Source: a virus. From it: a DNA stretch of 64,000 nt. Below, one piece after another: positions 2,610-21,099 of this stretch (its first letter is position 1; each line of letters begins with the position of its first letter). Location of the stretch: the IMG/VR virus record IMGVR_UViG_3300022602_000029, positions 124,001 to 188,000 of that record, one strand, 5' to 3'. Both the position numbers and the translations under genes were made by a program. The notes below the pieces were generated by a model. It was not told where the DNA came from. It was given only the letters and a program-made list of their open reading frames with translations, and made no database searches.

Positions 2610-3141
2610 AAAAGTTTTTTTCAAAATTTCTTTGTTGCCTTACTGCTTCTTTATTGATTTTAGTAACATTGCCGACTGATATGGCAATACGTTTAGATTT
2701 AATATTTCTAACACCGTGCGGTTCTGAAGTGTTAAGTCTATGCCAAGTGGCTTTTGGAATAACAGCATCGTAGGTTATAGGAGATTCGTCGTCTGCTTGC
2801 TCTGTCCATATAGTATGAACATCTTCACCACCACACTCTAATAAGAAATTATAGGCATAAGTTCTTGTCGTATCTACATGTACAGCTAGGCTGTCATTGA
2901 TTGTTTGAACAATAGCATAATAAGATTCTTGTTCAAACAATGGACCTATATGTCGATCGATCCAATCTTTGATAATTCCGTCTACATTGTAGGTATTAAA
3001 GTTTCTATAGCTAGATTTTGAATTTTTAGAAAATCTATAAGTTGTATTTGATGTGTTTATTAAATCAAAAACCGATTGTATAACTTCATCTGAAGGTAAT
3101 GGTATTTCCGGATGATAGGTAAGAAATTTATCGTGCTCCAT
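2593..3141 (-). CDS. Putative Fe(II)/2-oxoglutarate oxygenase-like beta-helix protein
   Basis: A 182-residue minus-strand protein. HVD at residues 88-90, then HGVRN (His142) and Arg151 in RIAISV, have the order and spacing of the HxD...H metal triad and 2-oxoglutarate-binding Arg of double-stranded beta-helix oxygenases. The segment between (TYAYNFLLECGG, then WHRLNTSEPHGVRN) fits the core strands. Substrate unknown. It is divergently transcribed from the gene at 3180, with only 38 bases between start codons. The call rests on motif spacing only. Confidence 0.55.
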   Translation of the reverse strand: MEHDKFLTYHPEIPLPSDEVIQSVFDLINTSNTTYRFSKNSKSSYRNFNTYNVDGIIKDWIDRHIGPLFEQESYYAIVQTINDSLAVHVDTTRTYAYNFLLECGGEDVHTIWTEQADDESPITYDAVIPKATWHRLNTSEPHGVRNIKSKRIAISVGNVTKINKEAVRQQRNFEKNFSKTKI

Positions 3142-3169
3142 TGATCTTGTCTTTAGTTTATGCTATATT
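3141..3169 (+). promoter_or_regulatory. Probable sigma70-type promoter for the 3180 gene
   Basis: TTGATC (3141-3146) and TATATT (3164-3169) are separated by 17 bases and sit just before the ATG at 3180, giving a nearly leaderless transcript. The -35 touches the start codon of the divergent minus-strand gene, so the two could be co-regulated. Confidence 0.5.
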
Positions 3170-3179
3170 TACATGTAAC

Positions 3180-3788
3180 ATGTCGCCTATTATAAAAACT
3201 AAATTTCCAACAGATAATGTTCCCTGGGAAAAGATATATCAAGATTTTGTCGATTCTAACTTTTTAGATAAACCAGGTTCTGCTGGAACCGGGAATACTG
3301 ATACAACATATTTTAGTCATCTGCGTAGAGATTTAGAACCTTGGGCAGAGGGTTTTCGCAATCACTTATTGGAAATAGTATGTCCGTTGTTACATTGGGC
3401 ACAATCTCCGACTTGGAATGATCTTGTTCTTAGAACATGGATGAATAGATATCGGAAAACTGGTGGTACTGTAAAACACACACATAGATGGACTGAACTA
3501 GCAGTAGTTTGGTATCTAAAGGCTGAAGATGGTGCTGCCAACTTTGTATATGAACACAATGATCGACAATCAGAAATACCAGTTACGACCGGAGATATAT
3601 TGATATTTCCTGGTGATCTACCTCATCTAGCAAAAGAACAACTATCTGATGATTCAAGGATCATCATGGCAACAAATTTATCTTGGACGTATAGATGTAT
3701 AGATAAAGTAAGCATAGAAACATTTGACAAGATATTAAGCAGTAGACTAGCCTACCTACATTCAGTACTATCTAGCGGAAATGATTAA
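3180..3788 (+). CDS. Putative non-heme Fe oxygenase (HxH...H beta-helix), paralogue A
   Basis: About 202 residues from ATG 3180 (MSPIIKTKFPTDNVPW). KHTHR (His100, His102), FPGDLPHL (His149) and Arg160 give an HxH...H...R pattern in a double-stranded beta-helix layout (LAVVWYL, then TGDILIFPG), as in the phage-rich putative 2OG-Fe(II) oxygenase families. The gene at 21566 encodes a clear paralogue with the same residues at the same numbers. A start at 3141 would only add a hydrophobic 13-residue extension overlapping the promoter. Substrate unknown; neighbours suggest a sugar or peptide side chain. Confidence 0.6.
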   Translation: MSPIIKTKFPTDNVPWEKIYQDFVDSNFLDKPGSAGTGNTDTTYFSHLRRDLEPWAEGFRNHLLEIVCPLLHWAQSPTWNDLVLRTWMNRYRKTGGTVKHTHRWTELAVVWYLKAEDGAANFVYEHNDRQSEIPVTTGDILIFPGDLPHLAKEQLSDDSRIIMATNLSWTYRCIDKVSIETFDKILSSRLAYLHSVLSSGND

Positions 3789-3826: not shown

Positions 3827-4933
3827 ATGGTAATTGACTTAAACGTAACAAGTACATGCAATCTAGCGTGTACTTATTGCTCTGAGGGATACGAGTGCGG
3901 CCTATCAACTGCCTATGAAGAAAACACAGAAGTAACGCTGGATGATATAGAGCAATTTATGGCTAAGATAGATGATCCTAAACGAGACATATATTTCTGG
4001 GGAGGTGAACCTTTTGTAAACTGGGAATTCTGCCGAGGAGTGATGGAGAAATACAAGGATGATCCTAACTATAACTTTTTCTTTTATACCAACGGAGTCT
4101 ATCTAAAGAAATATCTAAAAGAGCTGGTACGTTTCCATGAAGCTATGCCAAATAGGTTAAAGATACAGGTTAGCTATGACGGTAAACCTGTTAATGATAT
4201 CACACGTATAGATAAAAAAGGAGATCCCAGCAGTAGATTGGTTAAGAGTAACTATCTAGCGGCTAAGAACGCAGGGTTGAATGTCAAAATGAAATCTGTA
4301 TTAACCGCAGAACATTTCCATCTTATATATGAGGCTTTTCTTGATGTAATCGAGCTGGACGATAACTACTTCCCTACGCCTGATATGTATAGCCAGCTTA
4401 CATGGGAAGAGTTTCAACCCAAATTAGAAATACTCAAGGAAGGACTGGCTAAGATAGCCAAATACATCTATGTGAACAAATTGCCTCCAGAGAAGTTTGG
4501 TTGGTTCACACAGTCACGTGCTCTATGCGCAAGCGGCATTAACTATGTGTCAGTTGATTTGAATGGCGATATCAGTCCATGTCATGGTTGTATGTATAAA
4601 GAATCACATGCGCATGTCATGGGCAATATATTACAAGCACCAGACATAGACGCTTTGATTAAAGAAAAGACTCAGATGTACAAAGATGCTCTGCAGAATC
4701 AACCTCTGGACTGCCAGTCATGCGACAGTCAGTTCTGCATGAAGTGTAATGCCGCTACGTTTGAAAAAAGTGCAGGCGAAACATATCTAGACAAATGGAG
4801 TGATCATACCAGTAACTGGCAGGTATGTAGAGTGTTCAAGGCTAACGAAGTTGTACATCATGCCCTACGCACAGCTTTAAAAAGTTATAAGAAACCAAGA
4901 TTTGAAATAAAGGCAGAACAATGTTCACTCTAG
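3827..4933 (+). CDS. Radical SAM/SPASM protein 1
   Basis: Radical-SAM enzymes cleave S-adenosylmethionine with a 4Fe-4S cluster to start radical chemistry. The canonical Cx3Cx2C is CNLACTYC (Cys11, 15, 18), and GGEP (59-62) is the SAM-binding motif. From Cys234 on there is a SPASM-like set: CASG, PCHGC, then CQSCDSQFCMKCNAATF and a late WQVC, enough for auxiliary clusters. SPASM enzymes typically modify peptides or sugars. 368 residues is a normal length. It opens the cluster and overlaps the next radical-SAM gene by 13 bases, so the two are probably made together. Substrate not known; the Cys-rich protein at 7608 is a candidate. Confidence 0.9.
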   Translation: MVIDLNVTSTCNLACTYCSEGYECGLSTAYEENTEVTLDDIEQFMAKIDDPKRDIYFWGGEPFVNWEFCRGVMEKYKDDPNYNFFFYTNGVYLKKYLKELVRFHEAMPNRLKIQVSYDGKPVNDITRIDKKGDPSSRLVKSNYLAAKNAGLNVKMKSVLTAEHFHLIYEAFLDVIELDDNYFPTPDMYSQLTWEEFQPKLEILKEGLAKIAKYIYVNKLPPEKFGWFTQSRALCASGINYVSVDLNGDISPCHGCMYKESHAHVMGNILQAPDIDALIKEKTQMYKDALQNQPLDCQSCDSQFCMKCNAATFEKSAGETYLDKWSDHTSNWQVCRVFKANEVVHHALRTALKSYKKPRFEIKAEQCSL

Positions 4934-6045
4934 AAATATCAGTAACAGAAAAATGTAACTTAGGATGTCCCTACTGTTACGTTGCTAATCGTCCTACATG
5001 GATGGAACCGGAAACATTTGACAGAGCTTTACCAGAGTTATACAAACTAATGAATCGCAGTGGGGATGTTGACTATCATGTCAGTTTCTTCGGCGGTGAA
5101 CCCTTGCTTAACTTTGATCTGATTAAACATGCTGTTCCTAAGCTAGCCGCTGATCCTAAATGTAAAGGGATCAACATCATAACCAACCTCACTATGATAG
5201 ATGAGGAAAAAGCCAAATACCTAAAAGAAAACAATGTCGGGGTCAGTTGGAGCTTTGATGGGATGAGCAGTAATGAAACACGACCATTATTGCCTTTGCT
5301 AGAAAATACAAATCCAGAAACAGGAGAACTGTTTAATGGTATCTTGGATATGTACAACTATAAAAAAGATCTAATCACTGATCTTACTAACGGCTGCAAG
5401 GTCATGATATGGCCGGGTAATACCAAAGACATGACTGAGAACTTTGAGTTCTTACTAGGCTGGGGAATCGAACATCCGGATTTTAGTATTGTTCGTGATG
5501 ATGTTTGGACTAGAGATGATATAGTTGAGTTCAGATATGAATGCGAGAGATTAGCCGACGCATGGATCATCAAGATCAAAGAAGGCATTCCTTGTAGTGT
5601 AGGATTCCTAAGACTAGCGATCCTAGATATATTATTTGGGTTAGTTAAAGGTAAGAGACAGTTTGGTTGTTTCGCAGGAACTAACGGCGGTGTGCTAATG
5701 AGCAGTGGAGAGTTTTATCCATGTGCTCGCTTCGCTAGTAAAAAGATAATGAAGATGGATGAGCAGTATGATTTCAAGTATTATCAAAACATATTTAATC
5801 CTGGAAGCTATGACAAATGTCAGCCTTGTGATCTTAAGCAGGTATGTAACGCAGGATGTACCTACAGCCAAGTTATGAATGATAATAAACCTTTAGATTC
5901 AGTTTGTGAACTATTTCACATCTATTATGAACAGGCTATGAGAGTAGTAGCCGCATGTAGGAATGAACCTATCTTCCAAGACCTAATATTACATTACATT
6001 GAAAACGTAGGTGTAGAATCAGAAGGTGTAGAATGCAGGAACTAA
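4921..6045 (+). CDS. Radical SAM/SPASM protein 2
   Basis: 374 residues. Cx3Cx2C is CNLGCPYC (Cys12, 16, 19), followed by GGEP at 58-61. The last ~130 residues carry a SPASM-type pattern: CFAGTNGGVL, YPCARF, CQPCDLKQVCNAGCTY and a final CELF. The layout resembles sulfatase- and peptide-maturing enzymes. It begins at ATG 4921 inside the end of the preceding radical-SAM gene and its own end overlaps the small 6033 gene by 13 bases. Reaction unknown: thioether, C-C or epimerisation chemistry are all possible for the family. Confidence 0.9.
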   Translation: MFTLEISVTEKCNLGCPYCYVANRPTWMEPETFDRALPELYKLMNRSGDVDYHVSFFGGEPLLNFDLIKHAVPKLAADPKCKGINIITNLTMIDEEKAKYLKENNVGVSWSFDGMSSNETRPLLPLLENTNPETGELFNGILDMYNYKKDLITDLTNGCKVMIWPGNTKDMTENFEFLLGWGIEHPDFSIVRDDVWTRDDIVEFRYECERLADAWIIKIKEGIPCSVGFLRLAILDILFGLVKGKRQFGCFAGTNGGVLMSSGEFYPCARFASKKIMKMDEQYDFKYYQNIFNPGSYDKCQPCDLKQVCNAGCTYSQVMNDNKPLDSVCELFHIYYEQAMRVVAACRNEPIFQDLILHYIENVGVESEGVECRN

Positions 6046-6350
6046 AAAAGAAAACCTATCGCAGTTTGGCAAGTATTCCTGTCAAGGTAGAGATGCAGCC
6101 CGTTGAACATGCTACTGATCGTGTATTGACTACAGAAGAACTACAAGAGCAGATAGAAGAAGCACGTAAAGGCAAGGCCAAGGTAGATAGTAAGTATGTA
6201 GGTTTCGAGTTAGATGAACGCGGACATCTATTTGAATATAAACTAGACTATGTTTCTTTTTTATCCGATATGAGTTATATCATCAAAGAAGCTAAAAAGA
6301 GACCAAAAGAAAACAGATACAAAAATACTCACGAGATGATTATACAATGA
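6033..6350 (+). CDS. Small charged protein between radical-SAM genes
   Basis: 105 residues, no family recognised. It is mostly charged and helical (TEELQEQIEEARKGKAK at ~34-50), with a short alpha/beta-like middle (YVGFELDERGHLFEYKLDYV) and a basic tail. It overlaps the genes on both sides (13 and 4 bases), so it is translationally coupled to two radical-SAM enzymes. A partner, peptide-presenting or precursor role is possible; the ~55-80 segment could be a small beta element, but I see no clear RiPP recognition element. Confidence 0.6.
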   Translation: MQELKKKTYRSLASIPVKVEMQPVEHATDRVLTTEELQEQIEEARKGKAKVDSKYVGFELDERGHLFEYKLDYVSFLSDMSYIIKEAKKRPKENRYKNTHEMIIQ

Positions 6351-7240
6351 TACCCATCATACAGGAAAATCCAGGATTAGGTTTCTATGTAGGAGATTCT
6401 ACAGATAAACCCACACCTGTAGGGTCTGGTGTGAATGTAATCTATTTTACGAATAAATGTAATCTGGCCTGTACCTACTGCTATGAAGATCTTCCAGGTC
6501 GTCCTCCGCAGATAATGACGCGAGAAGATATACGTAAATCAATAGATATGATATTATCCAGAGAGAATCCTGATAACCAGACCTTGATAGTATTATTTGG
6601 AGGAGAAGCTACTCTAGAATGGGAAAATGTCTGCTACTGCATGGAGTATGCCTACAGTAAAAAGACTAACATACACTTTAATCTCACTACTAATGGTATA
6701 AAATATCTCAGTCAAAAGTTTATCGACGAAACTAAAACTAACTTTTTCTACAGTATGGGCCTATTAAGCATAGATATCAGCTTTGATGGTGTTGGTAATG
6801 GGGACAGAGTATTCCACAACGGATCGGATTCTACCCTTTCTATGATCAGAGTTTTTGGAAATCTCTTGAAGAATAACGTGAAGTTTAGGATAAGATACAC
6901 TATGCATCATAGAAATATCAATAATATCTATGAAGATATATCTATGATCATCAATAAGTTCCGTCCTACGAGATTAATCACCAGTGTAGCCTGGGATACA
7001 TTACAAGACGGTGATAGATCTAAACTAGAGTCAGCAAAAGAACTGTTCAGAAAAGACTGGATAAATAAAAAAATAACTATTCCTGTCTGCGAATTCTTTT
7101 GTGATATGTGTAGCGGATGCGGAGAGAGGAAAGAATTGAAAACATACTACACAGATGAAGGTAACGTAACTACTTATGGTAACTATGAAAACGCTCCAAA
7201 GTTCCATGATTTTAAAGAAAAGGTAACAATATGTCAGTAA
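6347..7240 (+). CDS. Radical SAM protein 3
   Basis: 297 residues. CNLACTYC (Cys38, 42, 45) is the cluster motif and GGEA (85-88) takes the GGEP position. The C-terminus has a compact cysteine group, CEFFCDMCSGCGERK, able to hold an auxiliary cluster, shorter than a full SPASM domain. TTNGIKY and DISFDGVG are typical radical-SAM barrel segments. Starts with ATGA overlap with the previous gene, and its end overlaps the 7231 gene by 10 bases. Its two downstream neighbours are an acidic small protein and the Cys-rich S74 protein, so it is the enzyme nearest to that likely substrate. Confidence 0.9.
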   Translation: MIPIIQENPGLGFYVGDSTDKPTPVGSGVNVIYFTNKCNLACTYCYEDLPGRPPQIMTREDIRKSIDMILSRENPDNQTLIVLFGGEATLEWENVCYCMEYAYSKKTNIHFNLTTNGIKYLSQKFIDETKTNFFYSMGLLSIDISFDGVGNGDRVFHNGSDSTLSMIRVFGNLLKNNVKFRIRYTMHHRNINNIYEDISMIINKFRPTRLITSVAWDTLQDGDRSKLESAKELFRKDWINKKITIPVCEFFCDMCSGCGERKELKTYYTDEGNVTTYGNYENAPKFHDFKEKVTICQ

Positions 7241-7605
7241 TCGAAAAAATGAACCAAATAGCGTCTCTGATAGGTGAGATCAAACAGGAAGATGAAAATG
7301 CTGGAAATCTTCTGGCAGAAGGGTTTCTTCTATCAGCTAAACTAATGCAGGAGATAACAGAAGCTGGAAATAGAGACAAGATTGATATTTCAGAACATTT
7401 AGCGATGATCGGAAGAGTTTTTGGTTTCACCGTGGAAGACCTAGTAAAATTTGTATTACAGAATAACTTCCAAAGCGTCGAATCAGACAAAGAACCTGAT
7501 CCGGCCACATTAGAATTTATAACCAGCGATCTAGACGACTATGAAAAATTCTTAGCACAGAATAAAGCAAAGGAAGACCTAGATTTCCTATCTAAGGAGA
7601 TTTAA
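7231..7605 (+). CDS. Small acidic helical protein next to the Cys-rich gene
   Basis: 124 residues, acidic, no family recognised. Helical heptad-like stretches at the start (MNQIASLIGEIKQEDENAG) and at the end (DDYEKFLAQNKAKEDLDF). No cysteines. It lies between the third radical-SAM gene (10-base overlap) and the Cys-rich protein (2-base gap), so it could be a chaperone or adaptor for that protein, or an independent small protein. Start at ATG 7231 has AAGGTAAC upstream. Confidence 0.55.
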   Translation: MSVIEKMNQIASLIGEIKQEDENAGNLLAEGFLLSAKLMQEITEAGNRDKIDISEHLAMIGRVFGFTVEDLVKFVLQNNFQSVESDKEPDPATLEFITSDLDDYEKFLAQNKAKEDLDFLSKEI

Positions 7606-7607
7606 AA

Positions 7608-8396
7608 ATGACCTATTGTTCTTGCCTAGCCTGCGGTTCAGTTTGCTGTAACGCCACTGGCGGGGGTACTTGTGGACCTCAAGGATGTTGTGCTTCCTAC
7701 GCTACAGCCTCATTAAGTTATAGTACAGGTATATGTGGCGCCGGAAGTTGTTCCTACACACCTACTTCTCTATCAGGAGTGATCTGTGGAGCTTGTTTTT
7801 GCCAACTATTGACTAATGTCTGCTGTGAAATGTGTAGAAGGAATCGTAGTGCTCCTAGCGGATGGGGACAGAGTAATCCTATTAATCACTCTGATTTTAA
7901 CAGTTTGGTAAACTATATCAACCAATCTAGTTGTTGGCCTGCCGCTTGCTATCAAAGCTATTGTAATGGTAGTACGACTCCATGTAGTCAATCTAGTGCT
8001 GGAGCTCCATCGGGGGTTCCCGCAAACGCTAACGCAGGAGATGTAATTTATAGTAGCTGTATAAATGCCTTAGTCAGCGCCATAGTTACTGCTGGTAATG
8101 CCTGTACCTGTAACTGCAACTACTGTACATGTAACTGCAACTACTGTACCTGTAACTGTAACTATACATGTACCTGTAACTGTAACTACAGTGATATCAG
8201 ATTGAAAAAGAATATCAAACTATTGAAAACTATTAAGGGTATAAACATCTACAGTTTTAACTATGAATGGGATGACACAGAACAGATAGGAGTGATGGCA
8301 CAAGAATTATTAGAATCAGGACATGACTATGCTGTCACTACAGATTCGAATGGGTTTTATATGGTTGATTACAGCAAACTACCAGTGAAGATGTAA
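7608..8396 (+). CDS. Cys-rich repeat protein with C-terminal S74 intramolecular-chaperone domain
   Basis: 262 residues in two parts. Residues 1-194 hold about 33 cysteines, many as CxC, CC or CxxC, ending in CTCNCNY repeats (~165-194); no cysteine follows. Residue 195 starts SDIRLKKNI, the hallmark of the peptidase S74 intramolecular chaperone that trimerises phage fibres and then cuts itself off just before this Ser; Ser195 and Lys200 would be the catalytic dyad, and IGVMAQELLE follows. The domain is short (~68 residues) and lacks the usual C-terminal helix. No signal peptide or hydrophobic segment. A trimeric virion fibre or tip is the best reading; a metal-binding protein is possible. It follows radical-SAM genes and is a prime candidate substrate for thioether or other crosslinks. 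Confidence 0.8.
   Translation: MTYCSCLACGSVCCNATGGGTCGPQGCCASYATASLSYSTGICGAGSCSYTPTSLSGVICGACFCQLLTNVCCEMCRRNRSAPSGWGQSNPINHSDFNSLVNYINQSSCWPAACYQSYCNGSTTPCSQSSAGAPSGVPANANAGDVIYSSCINALVSAIVTAGNACTCNCNYCTCNCNYCTCNCNYTCTCNCNYSDIRLKKNIKLLKTIKGINIYSFNYEWDDTEQIGVMAQELLESGHDYAVTTDSNGFYMVDYSKLPVKM
8103..8189 (+). repeat. Tandem 21-base coding repeats (CTCNCNY)
   Basis: Three consecutive 21-base units (8103-8123, 8124-8144, 8145-8165) and a fourth with a 3-base insertion (8166-8189) encode CTCNCNY. Units differ by only a few silent or near-silent bases (tgc/tgt, acc/aca), so the array is recent or maintained by slippage. It ends exactly at the S74 cleavage serine. Confidence 0.9.
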
Positions 8397-8405
8397 GGAA
8401 GTAAA

Positions 8406-8804
8406 ATGGATTATAAAGAAGTAGAAGGAATAGATGCTAACACATACGCAGGTAAAGCCGCTCAGGCCTGTAAGGTAAAAGCGAGAGGTATATTGGGAGA
8501 TGATCTTTTAACTTTTAAACTTATTGATTTTGTATCATTTATTATGATAAACAATCGGTTTTTAAATAAAGGGATTATCATAACTGATGAAAACAAAGAA
8601 GAAGGATATATCAAGATTATAGAAACAGGAGATGAATCTCTAATATCCGATCTAGAAAAGTACCTAGATCTTAGGGATAGTATTAAGAGTATAGAAAATT
8701 CTAAGAATGAATACTCTGATATCATCAATAAACTTAAATCATTGCAGGATCATAATGATAGAGATTCAGTCAATGCTATAGTCGAAGAATATCTAAGACG
8801 ATAA
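8406..8804 (+). CDS. Unknown small protein after the Cys-rich gene
   Basis: 132 residues, no family recognised. It has an alpha/beta-looking N-terminal part (GDDLLTFKLIDFVSFIMINN) and a long predicted coiled C-terminal helix (DLRDSIKSIENSKNEYSDII). One Cys (residue 19). Starts at ATG 8406 with GGAAGT upstream, 9 bases after the S74 protein, and ends 16 bases before the next gene. It could be a chaperone of the Cys-rich protein, but nothing in the sequence proves that. Confidence 0.5.
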   Translation: MDYKEVEGIDANTYAGKAAQACKVKARGILGDDLLTFKLIDFVSFIMINNRFLNKGIIITDENKEEGYIKIIETGDESLISDLEKYLDLRDSIKSIENSKNEYSDIINKLKSLQDHNDRDSVNAIVEEYLRR

Positions 8805-8820
8805 GTTATAGGAAAAATCA

Positions 8821-9828
8821 ATGTTAATAATAGTAAATACGATCGATTCAATCAATAGAAATCTTATAGGATTACGACTATTAGAAACATTCAACGACTT
8901 TAAGATAGACAACTTGACTGTGAAGATTGAAGGAATGGCCAGCAGTTTAACTAACTATGTTCTATATAACGAACAAGGATCAATAGTATATCCTACAGAA
9001 CCAGTTGATACAGATGCTTTGGAAAAACTTATATCTTTCCAAAACGATAGACTGTCAATAACTAGATCAGACCTACTAATCAAATTAGATTTTGCTTCTG
9101 TTGAGCATGATTATGGAATATTAAATAATCCTATCATGGAAAATCTAGATCAACCGTTAAACACTTACGAAGCTCAGTTAGATGCTTATCGTAATGATAG
9201 CAATAGTTGCAGAGTGATCGTTGGTATTTTTGGAAAATGGTTCATAGACAAGATGAGACAAGATATAGGAGCCGATAAGGTCAAGGTCCTAAATATTGTC
9301 AGGAATCCATCTGTTTGTTTTGTCTTAAATCAGACTCAAAATAAACAAAACGATCTATTTAAAGAATATAAACATTTAAGAAAATCAATATTAAATGCCG
9401 TAAGTTTATCTAGATTTGATGATATCACCACAGTCAAGTTTGAAGATATGTTATCATCAGGATCGATAATCTTTGATGGTGTTACTATCACATTACCTGA
9501 ATCGTATCAAAACCATAATAATCTGTTGACAGCATACGAATATCATAATCTGATATCTAAAGCTACTGATCAAAATCTAGATCAGTTTAACCAAGAGTAT
9601 TCAAACTACGAATTAGATCATTTTGTAGATATTACCGCAGAAGAAAAAACACAACAGACTCCGCCTCCAATCGGACTTTACGGATTTGTAAAAATTAAAG
9701 ATCATATCACTTTTACAAATCAAAAACTTGGATTAAATATTGCCGAGGAGACATTGACTCCTTTAAGCATGAACATTTTTACATCTCTCGGATATAATCC
9801 GTTATCACTTTCTCAAATATCTAGTTGA
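8821..9828 (+). CDS. Unknown protein, weak sulfotransferase-like motifs
   Basis: 335 residues. I cannot assign it. A central NIVRNPSVCF (~160) followed later by TTVKFEDMLSSG (~200) is reminiscent of the 3'-phosphate-binding RNP and the downstream K-x-E-D-L strand of sulfotransferases, but the N-terminal PAPS loop is not visible, so this is only a hint. The C-terminal quarter (YGFVKIKDHITF) is beta-rich. Starts at ATG 8821, just after a GGAAAAATCA leader, and its stop overlaps a TTG that could start the next gene. Confidence 0.4.
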   Translation: MLIIVNTIDSINRNLIGLRLLETFNDFKIDNLTVKIEGMASSLTNYVLYNEQGSIVYPTEPVDTDALEKLISFQNDRLSITRSDLLIKLDFASVEHDYGILNNPIMENLDQPLNTYEAQLDAYRNDSNSCRVIVGIFGKWFIDKMRQDIGADKVKVLNIVRNPSVCFVLNQTQNKQNDLFKEYKHLRKSILNAVSLSRFDDITTVKFEDMLSSGSIIFDGVTITLPESYQNHNNLLTAYEYHNLISKATDQNLDQFNQEYSNYELDHFVDITAEEKTQQTPPPIGLYGFVKIKDHITFTNQKLGLNIAEETLTPLSMNIFTSLGYNPLSLSQISS

Positions 9829-9854
9829 GATTTAAAAATATCGAGCAGTACAAA

Positions 9855-10769
9855 ATGTCTAAGATATTTAATCTCAAGCAATATGATCTAGTCTTCACTA
9901 CTTCGTTTTATATCAAACACGGAGTGTCTGGACACATGTATGAGTTGATTGATTATTATTATATTTGTAAAAAGTCTGGAATCAACTGTGCTATCCTTTT
10001 AGCAGACGGCGTTGACAAACAAACATTTTTCAATGCGATCAAATACAAATACAACTTTGACATAGATATCCTAAAGGATACACACCAATGTCATAACCCT
10101 AGAATTATTAGAACTAAGAATATCTGCATCGTAGATGGTTCCTGGAGAGTTAATGACTGTACAATATATGCAGACAACGCATTCTTATTAAGATGCTCAG
10201 AAGACGACTATACTTGGTTTGATACCAGTAAGTCAATTAAGCAAACACATCTTATGCAGGACTTTAAACTGTATCCAGAACGATACCGAGACTTAAACAT
10301 TAAGGTTGTTGATTATGTTAAGAAAATACTTTGGAGCAAATATGTACAGCCCAAACCGACTAATAACGATACCGGTTTGTTTTATCTAACAACTAACTGT
10401 AGAGCAATCCCTGCAGAAGAAGTTAAAGCTATTATGGATAAGGGTATATGTACAAATTATATTATAGTCACTGACCGTCCTAATCTTTACCAACCTCTGT
10501 TGGCTGATAATGTATCTATAGCACAGGCTCCATTACAGAATATATTTGAACATTTTGACACCTACATATATACTAAGACAGAATTACAGTCTGATTGCAG
10601 TCCTAGGTTTATTGTTGAGTGTGCTATGTTTGGTAAAAACGTTGTTTACGAAATTGATTATCTATGCGCAGGTGTAGAACGTAGAAAACAGGACATAGAT
10701 GCAGACTTATCAAGTTTAGAATTAACTACAGATGATTACTTTGTAGAATACGTAAAACAGTTTATATGA
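9855..10769 (+). CDS. Putative GT-B-like glycosyltransferase
   Basis: About 304 residues from ATG 9855; the in-frame TTG at 9825, overlapping the upstream stop, is an alternative start. The N-terminus (YDLVFTTSFYIKHGVSGH) and the C-terminal segment (DTYIYTKTELQSDCSPRFIV then ECAMFGKNVVYE) fit the two Rossmann-like halves of GT-B transferases, with SPRFIVECAMFGK near where the donor sugar binds. It lies between an unknown protein and a radical-SAM gene, which it overlaps by 4 bases. Donor and acceptor unknown; a glycan on a virion or host protein is possible. Confidence 0.5.
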   Translation: MSKIFNLKQYDLVFTTSFYIKHGVSGHMYELIDYYYICKKSGINCAILLADGVDKQTFFNAIKYKYNFDIDILKDTHQCHNPRIIRTKNICIVDGSWRVNDCTIYADNAFLLRCSEDDYTWFDTSKSIKQTHLMQDFKLYPERYRDLNIKVVDYVKKILWSKYVQPKPTNNDTGLFYLTTNCRAIPAEEVKAIMDKGICTNYIIVTDRPNLYQPLLADNVSIAQAPLQNIFEHFDTYIYTKTELQSDCSPRFIVECAMFGKNVVYEIDYLCAGVERRKQDIDADLSSLELTTDDYFVEYVKQFI

Positions 10770-11818
10770 TACCTATTAGAACAGAGTCCAATCATCTCGC
10801 TGAATTAAGTTCCGCAGGGCTAGAGCTTGATCTTATAACACAACCCTGTGTTCGTGCTAGATTAGATACAGGTACATTTTGTAATTACGACTGTGAGTTT
10901 TGTTACTACAGAGATAAACTAGATGTTAAGACAGAGTTTGATATTGTAAAAGAACGTGCAGACTATTTGCTTGCCTACGGTATCAAACAAGTAGACCTAA
11001 GTGGAGGAGAAAGCTCTGTAAGCCCTGATTGGTTTAAGATACTAGACTATTGTAATGAACGCTTTGAACACGTTAGTTGCCTAAGTCACGGAGGTAGATT
11101 TGCCAATATTGAATTCCTACAGGAGTCAATGGAGCATGGACTAAAAGAAATCTTGTTTAGCCTACACGGAGCAACAGCAGAAACACATGATGCTATTACC
11201 AATCGTAAAGGATCCTTCAAACGTATCCTTCAAGCAATCAAGAATGCACAAGAGCTAGGATGTGTAGTACGAATTAACTGTACTGTCTATCACAAGAACT
11301 ATCATCAACTGGTAAACATCTATGCTGACCTAATTAATGGAATCAAACCTTTAGAAGTTAATTTTATTACATTAAACTATTGGGATGATGTTTACATTGA
11401 TAATGTTACCTACAAAGATATGACTGACAACATTAAAAGTTGTATTGATATCTTAGACAAGGGTATGATCATCAATGTCCGTTATGTGCCTTATTGTTAC
11501 ATGAAAGGCTATGAGAAATATGTGTGTGATCAATATCAACACATATACGATATCTATGATTGGAATAAGGAAATGTATTCTAATGTGATTGATGTTAGTA
11601 AAACCTATACACAGGAACAAAAGATACAGTTTGCCTATGATGCTTGTAAGAAGTTTCGTGCTAGGTTTTATCGTAAACAAGTTGATTGCCTGAAGTGCAA
11701 ACACTTCTATATTTGTGATGGTATTGAAAGAGAAATAGCTGACAAGAATCCTGTGTTTCCAGAAGCAGGAGATAAGATCAAACAGGTTAATTTTTATAGA
11801 GCAGTACATTTCAAATGA
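10766..11818 (+). CDS. Radical SAM protein 4
   Basis: 350 residues. The cluster motif is CNYDCEFC (Cys39, 43, 46); GGES (80-83) takes the GGEP place. ILFSLHGATAETHD is a typical barrel strand and helix seen in MoaA-like and B12-independent radical-SAM enzymes. The C-terminus carries CKKF, then CLKCKHFYICDG, an incomplete SPASM-like set. Starts ATGA-style inside the previous gene and overlaps the GT2 gene by 4 bases. A radical-SAM gene flanked by two transferases suggests sugar chemistry for this copy, but no substrate is identifiable. Confidence 0.88.
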   Translation: MIPIRTESNHLAELSSAGLELDLITQPCVRARLDTGTFCNYDCEFCYYRDKLDVKTEFDIVKERADYLLAYGIKQVDLSGGESSVSPDWFKILDYCNERFEHVSCLSHGGRFANIEFLQESMEHGLKEILFSLHGATAETHDAITNRKGSFKRILQAIKNAQELGCVVRINCTVYHKNYHQLVNIYADLINGIKPLEVNFITLNYWDDVYIDNVTYKDMTDNIKSCIDILDKGMIINVRYVPYCYMKGYEKYVCDQYQHIYDIYDWNKEMYSNVIDVSKTYTQEQKIQFAYDACKKFRARFYRKQVDCLKCKHFYICDGIEREIADKNPVFPEAGDKIKQVNFYRAVHFK

Positions 11819-12426
11819 AACTGTCTATATTAATTCTTACACACAATCGTCCTAAATTATTCAAACGTTGTTTGGAAAGTGTTCTCACACAGATAACTCC
11901 AGAAGTTGAAGTGTTGGTTAATAATGACAGTTGCGATATTGAAGAGATTGTTCATTCGCAGGTACAATATTTTTATAACAAGTTTGATAGCCTATGTGAG
12001 ATATATCAATTCCTACTATCAAAGGCGCAGGGAACCTATGTGTACTATTTAGAAGATGATGATTATCTTGTTACTGATTTTCTAGAACAAACATTAGATG
12101 CAGATTTGATTGTTGGTAATTACTGTCCTAAATATGCAACAGAAGACATGCTGACTTTTATGACTATGTATAACAACAACAGAGTAACATCGGCTGAGTT
12201 TTTATCTAATCTTAATACAGAACATCTGCAACTATCGCAACACATATACAAGCGTGAACATATAGTAGATTTTAATTTTCCAAATGACAGTAACGTACAC
12301 AACGATATTAAACTAACAATACACGCGGCTAACAAAGCAAGGGCTATTAGAACAGTAAACAAAGTGTTTTACTTTCAAACAATAGATGGTGGAGATAATA
12401 TCTCTTTTCCTAAACATGAACTATAG
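11815..12426 (+). CDS. Family 2 glycosyltransferase
   Basis: 203 residues. SILILTHNRPKLFKRCLESV at the N-terminus is the GT2 nucleotide-binding start, and YLEDDDYL (EDDD 80-83) carries the DxD-type metal/nucleotide-sugar site. It is shorter than many GT2 enzymes (220-300), missing part of the acceptor region. Overlaps the genes on both sides, so it is coupled to radical-SAM genes 4 and 5. A role in decorating a virion protein or host polysaccharide is inferred. Confidence 0.8.
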   Translation: MKLSILILTHNRPKLFKRCLESVLTQITPEVEVLVNNDSCDIEEIVHSQVQYFYNKFDSLCEIYQFLLSKAQGTYVYYLEDDDYLVTDFLEQTLDADLIVGNYCPKYATEDMLTFMTMYNNNRVTSAEFLSNLNTEHLQLSQHIYKREHIVDFNFPNDSNVHNDIKLTIHAANKARAIRTVNKVFYFQTIDGGDNISFPKHEL

Positions 12427-13318
12427 CAAGCAACATCACATCGACCAAGACCCTGATCATATCAACGTGCATTGGGATGTTCTTACGATCTGTCAGTTAA
12501 AGTGTAGCTATTGTTATGCTCGTAATGAGTATGGAAAGAAGTGGGGTAAGCTGGGCAGTCGTGAAATCGCCGACGGAGTATTAGAAGCACTGAACAGAAG
12601 TAGCTTACCATTTAACCTAGGATTGTTGGGCGGAGAGCCTACACTAAGCCCGCACTATTATTACATCTTAAATCGTATTAGTGAGATGGAAAAGTTTAAT
12701 AAAGTTTATGTTGTAACTAATGGAGAAAAGGACTTTGCTACGCACCCAGACTATGAAAAGATTGCTTTCTTGTTTAGTTATCATCCTGCTGATTGTACAA
12801 ATAGGGATCGGTTTGTTTCTAATGTAAAACTAATGAAGGATCGTGGCTATAAAGTTAAAGTTAACGTAATGTTACATCACGGCAAGCAGTATTGGCCATT
12901 GATCAAAGAAATGTTTGAAATATGCGATGCTATAGGTGTCAAAGCACATCCACACTTTATATATGGTAAAAGTGTACACCAACTGTTTAACTATCGTAAA
13001 GCCTTTTGGGATTACTTTAGTTTCTTAAAAGAAAGAGACAGAGAACTAGTCTATGGCGATGAACTTAAGAACGATTACGAAATCTTTAGCGAACGTCTAA
13101 CAAACTTCGAAGGCTGGAGTTGTTACAACAACAACTATGAGCTAGATGTCTACGGTCAAGTGATTAAGTTCTGCTTAGACAATGAGCGTAAGAGCCTTCT
13201 TGAGAATCCAGACTTCTTTAAAAACATAACCAAGACCGTACCTATGACATGCCCTCACAAGGCCTGCAACTGTGATGGCTTACTCAAACAACTTAAGGTG
13301 AATCCAAATGCAAGTTGA
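12416..13318 (+). CDS. Radical SAM protein 5
   Basis: 300 residues from ATG 12416 (MNYSKQHHID); an upstream ATG at 12386 would extend further into the GT2 gene and is less likely. CQLKCSYC (Cys26, 30, 33) and LLGGEPTL (GGEP 72-75) define the family. The C-terminus has SCYNNNYELDVYG with a Cys, KFCLDNE and a final CPHKACNCDG, a compact auxiliary-cluster candidate. FLFSYHPAD fits a barrel strand. Overlaps radical-SAM 6 by 11 bases. Substrate unknown. Confidence 0.9.
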   Translation: MNYSKQHHIDQDPDHINVHWDVLTICQLKCSYCYARNEYGKKWGKLGSREIADGVLEALNRSSLPFNLGLLGGEPTLSPHYYYILNRISEMEKFNKVYVVTNGEKDFATHPDYEKIAFLFSYHPADCTNRDRFVSNVKLMKDRGYKVKVNVMLHHGKQYWPLIKEMFEICDAIGVKAHPHFIYGKSVHQLFNYRKAFWDYFSFLKERDRELVYGDELKNDYEIFSERLTNFEGWSCYNNNYELDVYGQVIKFCLDNERKSLLENPDFFKNITKTVPMTCPHKACNCDGLLKQLKVNPNAS

Positions 13319-14054
13319 ATGGGAAGTCACAATGAAGTGTAACTACAACTGTTACTATTGCTCTAACCTAGACAAGAGCATACACCATATCACTGATCAC
13401 GAAGTCCTGCGCAACTTTATCAAAATTTTGGGAGAAACTTATCCAGGTGTGGAGATATTCCTGTTTGGAGGAGAGCCATTTGTGCATCCTGAAATAGGTT
13501 TCATCATTAAATGCTTTAACGAATTTAATATTCCATTTGTAATACAAACTAATCTAAGCAAATACAGTATTGAAGTTATGAAAACTATCGATTCTCCTTA
13601 TATACTACAGGCTAGCATACATCCTACAGAAATATCACACCAAGACCTCGAAGACATCCTTAAAGAAAATATCGTATGTAGAGTTGTTGATGTAATGTTC
13701 AGTGGCAAGGAAGCCTTGTGGTACTATTTTAAAGTAAAAGAAAGCACAACTGGTAAAGTATATCTTACTCCAGTTACAGATTTTGGAGATGGCCGCAGTG
13801 ATACCGCTTTACAGGAATACTTGAGTTTAAAAAATGATCCTAACTATAATAAGATAATAAAATTTGAGGAAATAGAAAGGCTAGGCAAGCCTAGATCAGA
13901 ACTGTGGGCTACAATATCCTTTAGTCCTAAAGGAAAGCCCTGTCTATACAAAGACAAATACTTTCTGTACAGTCCACAACTAGAGATGTACAACTGTTGC
14001 TATAGAATTAAAACGGACGGCATCTGCCCAAAAAGCAAATGCTTCTTAATGTAA
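13308..14054 (+). CDS. Radical SAM protein 6
   Basis: 248 residues, the shortest of the set. CNYNCYYC (Cys11, 15, 18) and FGGEPF (GGEP 54-57). ILQASIHPTEI fits a barrel strand. The C-terminal cysteines (CLYKDKYF, YNCCYR, CPKSKCF) are enough for one auxiliary cluster. VWYYFKVK and TTGKVYLTPVTDF are unusual inserts. It stops in TAA overlapping the ATG of the next gene by one base. Sits directly after radical-SAM 5, so the pair may act in sequence or as a heteromer. Confidence 0.88.
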   Translation: MQVEWEVTMKCNYNCYYCSNLDKSIHHITDHEVLRNFIKILGETYPGVEIFLFGGEPFVHPEIGFIIKCFNEFNIPFVIQTNLSKYSIEVMKTIDSPYILQASIHPTEISHQDLEDILKENIVCRVVDVMFSGKEALWYYFKVKESTTGKVYLTPVTDFGDGRSDTALQEYLSLKNDPNYNKIIKFEEIERLGKPRSELWATISFSPKGKPCLYKDKYFLYSPQLEMYNCCYRIKTDGICPKSKCFLM

Positions 14055-15316: not shown

Positions 15317-16390
15317 ATGGCAGACTGGAAAAAACTAAAGATAGTTAGAGATAAAGAGGACATGCAGGTCGGGCAGATTAGACCGATGCGTTCTTATAAC
15401 GTGCTCAGCGAAATAGAACAGGGCGGTATTGACTATGACTATATGGTTACTTTCCGTATCACAGAAGCTTGCGATCTAAAGTGTAACTACTGCCATTGGC
15501 ATAGCGGAGCACATTACAAATATGAAGACATCATAACCACTATTGATAGATTATTTGATTTTTTTATCAAACAAGATTTTAAATCTGTACTATTTTATTA
15601 TCATGGCGGAGAACCTACTCGACATCCTAGATGCCTAGATATCCTAAAATATATACACCAAAAAGGTATAGACAAAGGAATAGATGCCTATAACGAGATG
15701 CAGACCAATCTTACCATTAAAGAAGATAAACTTCGTGCTATGCTCCCTTATTGCGATCAGTTTAATGCCAGTTTTCATTATTTAGAATTAAAAAGATTAA
15801 ACAAACTTAAAGACTTTGACCACAACTGGGAAGTTATTAAGCAGTTAGAAATACCTATCCATAATATGGATATAATGATGGAGAATGTTGAACGAGGGGA
15901 TAGATGGTATCAAGGTAAGACTGTAGAGGTCATACCTGAAGAGTTTTATAATAAAGTAGTCGATTATCTTAAGTATGACAAGATCCAAAACTGCGAGATG
16001 ATCTATGGATTTTGCCATTATGTTTATCCGGAAGATGTAGCCGAAAAGCATATGGCATTTTATAAACAGCATAACAAAACAGAACAACGATACGAGATAG
16101 ATGATATTATATATACCACCAACGACCTATTCAAACTAGGTATAGATGCACGCGGATGGAAATGTGCGGCAGGTCAGGAATCTATCACTATCAATGGAGA
16201 TGGTAATGTTTTCCATTGCGGAATACATATGACAAATTTTATACGTGATAGCCAGCCCGAGACTCCTTATACCAATCTAGTTAATGACAAACTCGCGATC
16301 ACCAAACTATCAGTGCTGTATAAAACAGGTACTATCTGTCGCTGGGATTATTGTGGCGGAGATTTCTATCTCAGTAGGGGCCCAAAATGA
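15317..16390 (+). CDS. Radical SAM protein 7, SPASM-like
   Basis: 357 residues. The core motif CDLKCNYC (Cys52, 56, 59) starts after a longer N-terminal extension than the others, and YYHGGEPT gives GGEP at 97-100. The C-terminal region carries GWKCAAGQESITINGDGN, VFHCGIHM and CRWDYCGGDF, the Gly-rich and Cys pattern of SPASM/twitch domains. It starts 13 bases after the U32-like gene and overlaps the oxygenase-like gene by 4. Substrate unknown. Confidence 0.9.
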   Translation: MADWKKLKIVRDKEDMQVGQIRPMRSYNVLSEIEQGGIDYDYMVTFRITEACDLKCNYCHWHSGAHYKYEDIITTIDRLFDFFIKQDFKSVLFYYHGGEPTRHPRCLDILKYIHQKGIDKGIDAYNEMQTNLTIKEDKLRAMLPYCDQFNASFHYLELKRLNKLKDFDHNWEVIKQLEIPIHNMDIMMENVERGDRWYQGKTVEVIPEEFYNKVVDYLKYDKIQNCEMIYGFCHYVYPEDVAEKHMAFYKQHNKTEQRYEIDDIIYTTNDLFKLGIDARGWKCAAGQESITINGDGNVFHCGIHMTNFIRDSQPETPYTNLVNDKLAITKLSVLYKTGTICRWDYCGGDFYLSRGPK

Positions 16391-16980
16391 AAACCATATC
16401 ATTATTTCCTATAGATGTTTATACTAAGAAAATAGATGTCGACTGGAACCAATCTCAGATATTAGAAAGACTAGACAGGTATTTTCTAGATCAAAAACAT
16501 AACGGAGTAGTGGATAATGATCTACATAAGGAAGTTTTGTTCAAACCCCTAGTAGAATTTATGGATGTGGCTGTTGCTGAATATTGGAAAATATTAGACT
16601 ACGATACTGGATATCCAGTATCGATAAGTCAGCTTTGGGCGAATAGATATGACCAGGGCGATCTCTATCCTCATAATCTGGACAATGATAGTCCTGCTAT
16701 CGTAACCTGCGTATTCTATGTTAGCAAGGATTCTGCAGAACAAGGCAATCTGTTTTTCGGAGACCCTAACCATTTATTGATTAAGACACAACCGCTCAGT
16801 ACTAATCGTAGGTACCAGAGCCAACCGGAGTTCGATGGAAGGACTGGGGACCTAATCTGTTTCCCGAGCTGGCTACAGCATGGCATAAAACCTAATCACA
16901 CTGATATCCCTAGACTGTCTATAGCGGCTAACTATGAGCTTAAAGGTTTGAATACGATTAAAAAGGCTATGACCAAATGA
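16387..16980 (+). CDS. Putative 2OG-Fe(II) oxygenase, PF13759-like
   Basis: 197 residues. SQLWANRYDQGDLYPHNLDN, GNLFFGDP, then GDLICFPSWLQHGIKPNHTD and RLSIAANY closely follow the layout of the phage-rich putative 2OG-Fe(II) oxygenase family (which reads ppHiHp...FPSWLqHsV.pn). His96, His165 and Arg176 are likely metal and co-substrate residues; the usual HxH is replaced by HNLD (His96, Asp99), so the ligand set may differ. Overlaps radical-SAM 7 and the next gene by 4 bases each. Confidence 0.7.
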   Translation: MKTISLFPIDVYTKKIDVDWNQSQILERLDRYFLDQKHNGVVDNDLHKEVLFKPLVEFMDVAVAEYWKILDYDTGYPVSISQLWANRYDQGDLYPHNLDNDSPAIVTCVFYVSKDSAEQGNLFFGDPNHLLIKTQPLSTNRRYQSQPEFDGRTGDLICFPSWLQHGIKPNHTDIPRLSIAANYELKGLNTIKKAMTK

Positions 16981-19202: not shown

Positions 19203-19897
19203 ATCTAAGAGAAGAACTGCTCAGGCACAGTTATAAGTACCGATTGACACATATAGCTTCTGCTCTATCCCAGTTAGATTATCTAGAAGAACTGTTTACG
19301 AAACAACTAGTTGTTCCTTATAGAGATAAAATTGTTATAGGAAAAGTTTTTGGAGGGCAATCTTATTTCCTGGTTTGGAAAAAACTAGGTTACCTAGATA
19401 ACTTACCTAATCTTGAATGCTTACCTGTAGTTAAACATGATGAAATACCTTTCATTGATTTCGCTGAGTTTTCTATAGGAAATGCTTTGGGTGTAGCAGC
19501 CGGTATAGCAATGACAACAGATAAAATGATTTGGACTAATATATCAGATAGTGCCCTACAGATGGGCAATACACTAGAAGCCATACAGTTTTGTGGTCAC
19601 AATAGATTAAAAAACATGTTAGTCACAGTTGATATGAATAATGGACAGGTAACAGGAAAGACCGAAGATATATTACCTGTAGAACCTGTAGTTGATTTTT
19701 TTAGAAACTATGGATGGGATGTGAATTTTGATCTAGAAAACTTCAAAGTAGGAGATCGCCCTAAAGTATTCATTTTAAGGAATAAAAAAGGCAAGGGTAT
19801 TAAATCGATAGAAAAGGATATAAGGAAATGGCATTACAAGAAAATAGAAACATACGCAGAATTACAATCGTTGGTGGAGGAACTTCGGGATACCTAG
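19199..19897 (+). CDS. Transketolase-like, thiamine-diphosphate domain (N-terminal half)
   Basis: About 232 residues from ATG 19199, which overlaps the previous stop as ATGA and has AAAGGAAT upstream. FSIGNALGVAAGIAM, TLEAIQFCGHNRLKNMLVTV and VDMNNGQVTG are the PP domain of transketolases, which normally partners a separate pyrimidine domain. The usual GDG of the TPP motif is SDS here (NISDSALQMGNT), retaining only the Asp; the Asn pair of DMNN is kept. So cofactor binding may be altered. The second half is encoded at 21096, with a halogenase gene between. Product may be a keto-sugar, as in sugar-pathway transketolases. Confidence 0.75.
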   Translation: MNLREELLRHSYKYRLTHIASALSQLDYLEELFTKQLVVPYRDKIVIGKVFGGQSYFLVWKKLGYLDNLPNLECLPVVKHDEIPFIDFAEFSIGNALGVAAGIAMTTDKMIWTNISDSALQMGNTLEAIQFCGHNRLKNMLVTVDMNNGQVTGKTEDILPVEPVVDFFRNYGWDVNFDLENFKVGDRPKVFILRNKKGKGIKSIEKDIRKWHYKKIETYAELQSLVEELRDT

Positions 19898-21099
19898 CCG
19901 CATTTTATCTATCTAAAAACTATCCTGAAAAAGAAATCACTTGGATATTTCCAGAAGAAAATAATCCCATTGGAGTCGGAGAAGCGTTGGTTCCTAAAAG
20001 TAGCGATTTTCTATTGTCTATAGGAATTAGTCATAAAGATATTTTAAAATACTGTAATGGAACTTTAAAGCTAGGAATACTTTTTGATGGATTCAATAAA
20101 AAAGGAGAGGATTTCTTTTTTCCTTTTGGTATTGGAGTAGATGATAAACACAACGGGTCTAGCATCAACTATATCATGCAGAAAGATCTAATACCTGATA
20201 CTATATTAGAATATAGAGATATGGCCACACATTTTAATACTGTAGAGTTCGCAAAATATCTAGATACAAAGACACATGAGCTCGATAATCTTAAAATACT
20301 AAGAAATGAAGTAACCCTAACTGACTTAGAAGGTACATATGATCTATTGATAGATAGCACAGGATTTAAAAGACATATGAGTAAACAACCGGATAACTTT
20401 GAGGATATAAGTCATATCATTCCAAATAATCGGGCGTTGACCTGTAGAATCAAATACACTGATAAAAGTAAACAATGTAAACCATACAGTCTATTCAAAG
20501 CTATGGATTATGGATGGTGTTGGCATATTCCTTTAGGAGATAAGTTATCTTTTGGATATGTCCACGATAATAAGTTCGATGTAAGAGAAGAGTTTATTTC
20601 TCATGTTAAAGACTATATGGGTATCGATCCTTTAGAAATAAATGTGATTGACTTTATCACAGGAAGAAATAAAGTGCACCTCAAGGATAATATCGTGAGC
20701 ATCGGTCTCGCTAGTACTTTTGTAGAACCGATAGAATCTACAGGTATATATCTGATAATATCAGCTATAGAAAGATTAAAACTCTATATCGATGGAGGAA
20801 TAACAGAACATGAATATAATCTACAAACCAACGAAACATTTGATGGCATAGTTAACTTTATTGCGGCACATTACAAATATTCTAAGAGAGATAACGAATA
20901 TTGGAATCATTATAAAAATCTAAAGGTTGAAAATTATAAAGAGACTAGGTTATTTCCTGTAGAAGCATGGAGATATGTCCTTAGTGGATTTGGATTGAAT
21001 GAATATCCTAAAGAAAGCATGGATCCTAGAGAGTTCATTAACATACAGAAAGGAACTCCTTATGTGAAATGGTTAGAAAGTATAAGGAGTGAACCATGA
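19828..21099 (+). CDS. Flavin-dependent halogenase
   Basis: 423 residues. Seen: GGGTSGYLAA (FAD-binding GxGxxG), GVGEALVP (~49-56), CNGTLKLG with Lys81 aligning with the catalytic Lys79 of RebH/PrnA, GWCWHIPLG (the GWxWxIP signature of flavin-dependent halogenases) and EPIESTGIYLI (the Glu/Ser pair near the halide site). These are the key residues, so I expect an active enzyme making hypohalous acid and a Lys-haloamine. The family halogenates tryptophan, pyrroles, phenols and, for the marine viral enzyme VirX1, other aromatics. It shares 70 bases with the end of the transketolase gene and 4 with the next. Substrate unknown. Confidence 0.9.
   Translation: MALQENRNIRRITIVGGGTSGYLAAFYLSKNYPEKEITWIFPEENNPIGVGEALVPKSSDFLLSIGISHKDILKYCNGTLKLGILFDGFNKKGEDFFFPFGIGVDDKHNGSSINYIMQKDLIPDTILEYRDMATHFNTVEFAKYLDTKTHELDNLKILRNEVTLTDLEGTYDLLIDSTGFKRHMSKQPDNFEDISHIIPNNRALTCRIKYTDKSKQCKPYSLFKAMDYGWCWHIPLGDKLSFGYVHDNKFDVREEFISHVKDYMGIDPLEINVIDFITGRNKVHLKDNIVSIGLASTFVEPIESTGIYLIISAIERLKLYIDGGITEHEYNLQTNETFDGIVNFIAAHYKYSKRDNEYWNHYKNLKVENYKETRLFPVEAWRYVLSGFGLNEYPKESMDPREFINIQKGTPYVKWLESIRSEP

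Follow-up and report, generated by a model that had tools for sequence, protein, structure and literature searches.

A phage cysteine-repeat protein with an S74 chaperone domain is linked to radical-SAM enzymes and may be their substrate

The CTCNCNY protein is encoded in the window, a stretch of 64,000 nucleotides that covers positions 124001-188000 of a 193,746-base virus record, and falls within a wider, undescribed class of phage Cys-repeat proteins. The link of these repeats to radical-SAM genes is real and specific. The genetic tie, found here and in many unrelated phages, between a fibre-like protein and radical-SAM enzymes of the peptide-crosslinking kind suggests a hitherto undescribed chemical modification that viruses carry out on components of their own particles. 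The components are of known kinds (RiPP-type enzymes and S74 fibres); their combination, the heptad repeat, a split form of the S74 domain and the spread across phages are new relative to the literature searched. An earlier note, made from the sequence of the window, knew of no phage fibre matured in this way, and the open-access literature agrees: no paper was found on CTCNCNY or on phage radical-SAM genes linked to fibres, although such a search is weak evidence. Radical-SAM modification is known to us from small secreted peptides and a few enzymes, and we know of no case in virus particles.

All 33 Cys residues of the precursor, as we call the protein, lie within residues 1-194, with 21 before the repeats and 12 inside them (Table 1). 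The chance of finding 33 Cys in 194 residues is approximately 5e-27 under a binomial model with a background of 1.25%, the mean over the other plus-strand ORFs of at least 150 aa in the window. Four CTCNCNY heptads, with one extra residue (T) between the third and the fourth, run straight into the S74 domain, which matches PF13884 and whose first residue, 195, opens the motif SDIRLKKNI. Thus, the earlier description of about 33 Cys in the first 194 residues, followed without a gap by S74, is exact. A structure model of the precursor predicts three helices in the N-terminal part (residues 61-77, 94-104 and 149-164) and gives no confident fold for the repeats (pLDDT approximately 32). With this model, a PDB fold search returned no significant match, and a viral fold search returned only S74 domains, that is, phage intramolecular chaperone domains.

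Table 1. Positions of the precursor, its neighbors and related features in the window and in other phage loci
Feature	Record	Positions	Strand	Basis or remark
rSAM1, radical SAM + SPASM, 368 aa	Window	3827-4933	+	PF04055, PF13186; CteB 5wgg E 7e-25
rSAM2, radical SAM/SPASM, PapB/SCIFF-maturase-like, 374 aa	Window	4921-6045	+	NF047865 E 9e-37 (below cut-off); CteB 5wgg E 2.5e-32
orf105, small protein kept beside the enzymes	Window	6033-6350	+	
rSAM3, radical SAM, 297 aa, C-terminal CxxxCxxCxxC	Window	6347-7240	+	PF04055, alignment; CteB 5wgg E 4e-19
orf124, small protein directly before the precursor, conserved C-terminus DLDDYEKFLAQN	Window	7231-7605	+	
Precursor, fibre-like protein with Cys-rich repeat and C-terminal S74, 262 aa, 33 Cys	Window	7608-8396	+	Open frame, ATG start
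Precursor N-terminal part, residues 1-165, INxLxxxINxExxRRG modules, 21 Cys	Window	7608-8102	+	Alignment
Precursor core, four CTCNCNY repeats, residues 166-194, 12 Cys	Window	8103-8189	+	
Precursor Peptidase_S74 intramolecular chaperone domain, residues 195-262	Window	8190-8396	+	PF13884, fold match
orf132 (PHROG 25260), after the precursor	Window	8406-8804	+	
orf335, kept in freshwater cassettes	Window	8821-9828	+	
orf314 (PHROG 24441), kept in cassettes	Window	9825-10769	+	
rSAM4 (PHROG 27238), kept further along the cassette	Window	10766-11818	+	
Glycosyltransferase-like protein, kept in cassettes	Window	11815-12426	+	Name from sequence only
rSAM5	Window	12386-13318	+	
rSAM6	Window	13308-14054	+	
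rSAM7	Window	15317-16390	+	
Second IscA-type Fe-S carrier	Window	26826-27152	-	PF01521 E 2e-19
IscU/NifU-type Fe-S scaffold	Window	27634-28020	+	PF01592 E 3e-53
IscA/ErpA-type Fe-S carrier	Window	28020-28355	+	PF01521 E 1e-21
Split S74	L009	7704-7954		
Split S74	L024	7731-7981		
Split S74	L010	6372-6712		
Split S74	L014	6486-6776		
Split S74	L016	6309-6600		
Split S74	L027	5887-6210		
Split S74	L075	2751-3050		
Split S74	L102			
Cys-rich ORFs of Salmonella phage SPN3US	L243	9192-9398, 9414-9818, 9829-10221	-	NC_027402 about 143191-144220
Cys-rich ORF of Erwinia phage Asesino	L239	5070-5863		

The repeat block is the shared Cys element among relatives. A search of IMG/VR with the precursor protein yielded 36 loci, and the block is near letter-perfect in 17 relatives whose whole proteins are only 32-46% identical to that of the window. 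It always comprises 29 residues with 12 Cys and the extra residue before the fourth repeat, and its Asn and Tyr positions are conserved as strongly as the Cys. The N-terminal parts of these relatives are almost Cys-free, so the 21 N-terminal Cys, which we considered as a conserved feature, are peculiar to the window phage among the sequences seen, and the Cys richness that the earlier note saw along the whole region is not a general trait. Selection acts on the protein rather than on the DNA, because synonymous codons for Cys, Asn, Tyr and Thr are interchanged freely within and between repeat genes (pS approximately 1, saturated) while pN is 0.03 (136 pairs). For rSAM2 in the same phages pN is 0.17, which places the repeat block under the stronger constraint. 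Because synonymous sites are saturated, recent tandem expansion at the DNA level is rejected for the CTCNCNY group.

The tie between Cys-repeat proteins and radical-SAM/SPASM enzymes is borne out in both directions of search, which together give dozens of phages with the pairing, among them the isolates CP220, CPt10 and CP21. A search blind to the enzymes, for DNA of two adjacent CTC(N/D)CNY repeats, yielded 37 stretches from viral contigs and a single one from GTDB genomes; the GTDB stretch is on a 3-kb contig that also bears radical-SAM genes together with a split S74. Full-length rSAM2 (E below 1e-120) is present in 16 of the 20 records that hold repeats. The other four comprise two short contig fragments bearing one and the same gene, a contig whose start falls within the gene and a record with a weak match, in which an rSAM3-like gene adjoins the repeat gene. 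Thus, when we looked for the case that the earlier note had named as contrary to its proposal, the same fibre with no radical-SAM genes nearby, we found only fragment or edge contigs and the one record with a weak rSAM2 match.

In the reverse direction, a Cys-rich ORF is present at 42 of 50 loci around close relatives of rSAM2, although these 42 are not fully independent and represent 32 distinct ORFs. Several of the remaining eight are contig edges, a deletion copy (L088) or the Campylobacter phages CP220 and CPt10, in which the repeat gene is elsewhere in the same genome as the rSAM2-type gene. We discounted L088 as a relative that lacks the gene: it duplicates L002 except for a deletion that runs through the repeats and may be an assembly fault. 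Among 80 control loci, chosen around the nrdA gene of the phage, none has a sense-strand Cys-rich ORF (Fisher 2e-26 versus 42 of 50); eight raw matches in these controls are all antisense shadow ORFs. The linkage persists even though phage groups differ in gene order, and in distant phages only rSAM1 and rSAM2, with or without rSAM3, are kept with the repeat protein in an otherwise altered cassette. A link between S74 and radical-SAM genes was also considered and is rejected: the Cys repeats carry the association, and S74 is absent or split in many relatives. Searching annotated phages with the precursor protein by tblastn gave no match, probably through the low-complexity filter, and these phages were reached instead via DNA patterns and the enzyme.

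The rSAM1, rSAM2 and rSAM3 genes precede the precursor, as the earlier note had it, with one 124-aa ORF in between; all three match PF04055. In rSAM1 and rSAM2 this match is above the cut-off and the CxxxCxxC radical-SAM motif is present, and the SPASM Cys of rSAM2 are invariant among 22 sequences (C250, C268, C300xxC303x5C309x3C313 and C329). The best solved match for all three profiles is PDB entry 5wgg, which we take to be CteB, a thioether-forming SCIFF maturase; rSAM1 and rSAM3 also have the epimerase YydG as one of their weaker structural matches. The best NCBIfam match is the PapB ranthipeptide maturase, and other peptide maturases are also matched, all below cut-off; for PapB (NF047865, cut-off 340 bits) the scores are 127 bits for rSAM2, 72 for rSAM1 and 81 for rSAM3. 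These matches place rSAM1-3 among peptide-modifying enzymes and do not fix the reaction, which is not readable from sequence because the scores are far below the cut-offs of the named maturase families. Both rSAM1 and rSAM2 begin with the radical-SAM domain. No RiPP recognition element (RRE) was identified. The small protein orf105, considered as a stand-alone recognition element, gained no support: its model is of low confidence and lacks an RRE fold.

Four further radical-SAM genes are found within approximately 9 kb downstream of the precursor. The nearest group of relatives, largely freshwater phages judging from the samples, has the conserved order rSAM1, rSAM2, orf105, rSAM3, orf124, precursor, orf132, orf335, orf314 and rSAM4, followed by the glycosyltransferase-like gene, rSAM5 and rSAM6, with few insertions overall. 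Because orf132 also follows the precursor in distant phages, it is a possible assembly partner. The IscU/NifU-type scaffold encoded by the phage may supply its [4Fe-4S] enzymes; IscU is present in 5 of 20 related records. The cassette also holds a UDP-sugar dehydrogenase, 2OG oxygenases, epimerases and a halogenase family protein, and no transporter or immunity gene was recognized in it. This flavoprotein of the tryptophan-halogenase family and several proteins resembling 2OG-Fe(II) oxygenases are at 19828-21099, 3141-3788, 16387-16980 and 21566-22195, the first three of which were included in the Pfam run.

The S74 domain of the precursor is supported as an intramolecular chaperone domain, as proposed earlier. 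Pfam Peptidase_S74 (PF13884) matches residues 195-236 with E 2.8e-8 and 34.4 bits, above the gathering score of 22, and PHROG virion-structural and tail-fibre families match the same region. Both residues of the Ser/Lys dyad are present, S195 and K200, five positions apart; the dyads S911/K916 of endoNF and S587/K592 of MyRF occupy equivalent positions with the same spacing (PMC8326128). Cleavage is thus predicted between Y194 and S195. The C-terminal trimerizing helix is absent from this S74 domain, and the protein ends in VDYSKLPVKM. The short form is not unique, because the precursor's match to the 392-position PHROG 6121 profile extends near the end of the profile. Trimerization of the fibre, part of the earlier proposal, is therefore an assumption, as the domain stops before the helix that drives it in MyRF.

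S74 is not a fixed part of the layout, contrary to what the earlier note took it to be. Eight distinct proteins have a fused S74 domain, and at least eight loci have a split one (Table 1), in which the precursor stops 12-18 residues into S74 with the Ser and Lys kept (for example, SDERVKAEVEYM), and the next ORF encodes the remainder of the domain and the helix. L009 has three tandem precursors, two with this tag, followed by one separate S74 ORF. L024 has four tandem precursors, all with the tag (one ending in SDEQVKTNIEYI), and one separate S74 ORF common to the four. Because an automatic scan for split S74 overlooked some examples and returned a false match (the third copy in L024), the cases cited were read by eye. 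The arrangement looks like a chaperone serving a set of tagged proteins in trans, for which we know of no description. Some relatives have the tag alone or no S74 at all. Because S74 is absent or split in so many, it is an accessory, with the Cys block as the heart of the system. In L026 (6453-6892) and L029 (6516-6979), another ORF takes the place of S74; its product has hydrophobic stretches and may be a membrane protein.

Placement of the precursor in a virion appendage is suggested by S74, which is known mainly from fibres and spikes, and by genomic context. The repeat gene in L238 begins 1 base after giant fibre genes, an RNA ligase/tail-fibre attachment gene directly follows the repeat gene in Campylobacter phages, and some phages, from the gut and elsewhere, have Cys repeats fused to proteins of 850-1470 aa that are tail-like in appearance. 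Counting against this placement, the published gel bands of CP220 do not include the Cys-repeat protein (PMC2853527); for IBB_35 a list of 38 virion proteins has been published.

We consider it moderately probable that the precursor is a virion appendage whose Cys repeats are a substrate of the phage radical-SAM enzymes. The gene product would then be a fibre or tip protein in which the CTCNCNY block forms a C-terminal rod. At least rSAM1 and rSAM2, perhaps helped by rSAM3, would modify the block while the helper parts are still attached. The E..RR helical modules would probably be the region at which the enzymes dock and recognize their substrate, because neither enzyme has a leader-binding domain of its own. 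Thioethers from Cys to neighboring Thr, Asn or Tyr positions would be the most likely chemistry, since the nearest solved relatives are thioether-forming RiPP maturases; provided that the repeats are modified at all, we give this chemistry about an even chance. S74 would then organize the chains in the window phage, and the Ser195/Lys200 dyad would cut before Ser195, so that the modified repeats become the fibre's free distal end. The analysis itself shows the gene order, the conservation, the specific co-occurrence, the enzyme families and the dyad residues; the role of the repeats as substrate, the thioether chemistry, trimerization, cleavage and the virion placement are inferred. Points that weigh against the proposal are the CP220 gel bands, the search for a recognition element that identified none, the low scores to named maturase families, the missing trimerizing helix, the many relatives that manage without S74 and the low-confidence model of the repeats.

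The CxC patterns resemble those of metal-binding proteins, so perhaps the repeats instead form an unmodified metal-binding or disulfide-rich virion rod, with a CxCxC pattern like that of metallothionein or with metal centres of the kind found at certain spike tips, in which case the radical-SAM enzymes would have other targets, for example surface sugars. The sugar, oxygenase, epimerase and halogenase family genes of the cassette indicate that some radical-SAM genes may indeed serve other tasks. However, sugar chemistry does not predict that Cys-rich ORFs of varied repeat types are found beside related radical-SAM genes in unrelated phages, and the peptide-maturase/SPASM type of the enzymes and their retention with the repeat protein when the rest of the cassette differs in distant phages make an unmodified rod unlikely. 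The layout of a precursor with radical-SAM genes and a core beside a cleavage site also recalls a phage RiPP in the narrow sense, in which the repeat peptide is freed as a small effector, secreted or kept inside the cell and aimed, for example, at competitors or the host, and S74 is a mere protease trailer. Some precursors are short enough (125-230 aa), and tandem paralogues occur in some phages (L009 and L024). Such an effector is nonetheless distinctly improbable, given that the cassette has no recognized transporter or immunity gene, that S74 is otherwise found mainly in fibres and spikes, that in other phages the gene adjoins or is fused to fibre or tail genes, and that a cleavage site behind the core is missing in many relatives.

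A radical modification of another sort, such as D-amino acids at alternate positions or carbon-carbon links at Asn and Tyr, with the Cys left free or metal-bound, would be a chemical variant of the preferred explanation, and its likelihood overlaps with that one. The strict C-T-C-N-C-N-Y alternation suits chemistry at alternate residues, as do the YydG relationship of rSAM1 and rSAM3 and the conservation of Asn and Tyr on a par with Cys. Set against these, the best matches are to CteB and PapB-type thioether enzymes with SPASM clusters, and Cys is the constant residue in the wider class whereas T, N and Y vary; we therefore regard this variant as rather doubtful.

An appendage modified by radical-SAM enzymes would share features with several known systems. 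In SCIFF and ranthipeptide systems (CteB and PapB), a radical-SAM/SPASM enzyme of the same subfamily neighborhood is likewise encoded beside a Cys-rich precursor with short repeated Cys motifs. In contrast to these, the system described here is in phage genomes, has a precursor of 140-530 aa with helical modules, heptad CTCNCNY repeats and often S74, and uses two to three enzymes rather than one, with scores well below cut-offs. S74 fibres (endosialidase endoNF, the T5 L-shaped fibre and GA-1 gp12) also have a C-terminal Ser/Lys-dyad domain directly after the mature part. However, the precursor has a Cys-repeat block in place of any recognized triple-beta-helix or enzyme domain, it lacks the C-terminal helix, and its relatives divide the domain between a tag and a separate ORF. 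For radical-SAM thioethers within a protein that remains in a larger assembly, QhpD and quinohemoprotein amine dehydrogenase provide a precedent, with a profile match below cut-off; that system differs in that the substrate is a bacterial enzyme subunit, with no repeats and no virus particle.

The Campylobacter phages CP220, CPt10 and CP21 (Firehammervirus) encode proteins with the same CTC(D/N)CNY repeats (CPT_0180, CPt10_1891 and CP21_105; PHROG 26958), as does IBB_35, with AEF56812 (contig 3, 8498-10102) as the gene of interest. Rather like the window phage, CP220, CPt10 and CP21 carry rSAM1- and rSAM2-type genes, but they lack S74, have a longer N-terminal part and have their enzymes scattered in the genome. 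The abundance of radical-SAM genes in CP220 has reportedly been a puzzle since 2010. In the searched text of Timms et al. 2010, a 21-bp repeat and many radical-SAM genes are noted and are not connected (PMC2853527).

Radical-SAM genes further from rSAM2 and rSAM3 also adjoin genes of Cys-repeat proteins, at 14 of 26 and 29-30 of 37 loci. The other repeat types include CPCNCNF, CTCTCTC, CHSNCHSDC, CSGCSGC and CQTCQSC; across them Cys stays constant, and T, N and Y are replaced by S, G, Q and others. The E..RR motif, part of a helical module H.NELR..IN.E..RRG, is found in 55 of 87 phage Cys-rich ORFs versus 21 of 799 background ORFs. On a tree of rSAM2 relatives the repeat types group with the enzyme clades, with 16 label changes versus 30 when labels are shuffled (0 of 200 shuffles as low). 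The heptad type occupies mostly one supported clade and the other types mostly its sister clade, on a tree whose deep branches are long and whose deeper joins are unsure. In the jumbo phages Erwinia Asesino and Salmonella SPN3US, Cys-rich ORFs lie between virion genes and two radical-SAM genes, and in SPN3US the neighboring gp168 belongs to the virion. The SPN3US annotation places SPN3US_0166 in the wrong frame across one of these ORFs and omits the rest, so published proteomics were probably unable to see them.

More broadly, many phage lineages (T4-like Campylobacter phages, freshwater phages, jumbo Salmonella and Erwinia phages and gut phages) might build tail-fibre or tip parts from Cys-repeat polymers that dedicated radical-SAM enzymes lock covalently, some with a split S74 chaperone serving multiple tagged fibre proteins in trans. 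We hold this view tentatively, at a little under an even chance; if correct, it would represent a general, so far unseen form of virion maturation. Modification of the repeats would introduce a covalent, oxygen-sensitive step into fibre assembly and could help to explain why some phages have approximately ten radical-SAM genes and their own Fe-S scaffold proteins. It would also give a testable role to Cys-rich phage ORFs that are unannotated or wrongly annotated, and provide a new repeat scaffold for peptide engineering, and with the split S74, fibre assembly would gain a maturation factor that works in trans.

Several smaller observations concern individual phages. CP21_105 (L236, 6992-8596) is annotated as a putative N-acetylneuraminate pyruvate lyase, for which no support was seen in its sequence. 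The two giant fibre genes directly before the Cys-repeat gene in L238 (33-9932) consist largely of GSAGSAG repeats. In gut and other phages, Cys-repeat proteins of CSGC, CTCT or CQTC type adjoin radical-SAM genes, and some are fused to large tail-like proteins; these loci include L139, L143, L149, L198, L201, L202, L206, L218, L220, L224 and L230. Finally, the "sole intragenic 21-bp repeat" described for CP220 and CPt10 in 2010 corresponds to the codons of the CTC(D/N)CNY heptad (L077, 8965-9088; CPt10 gp145).
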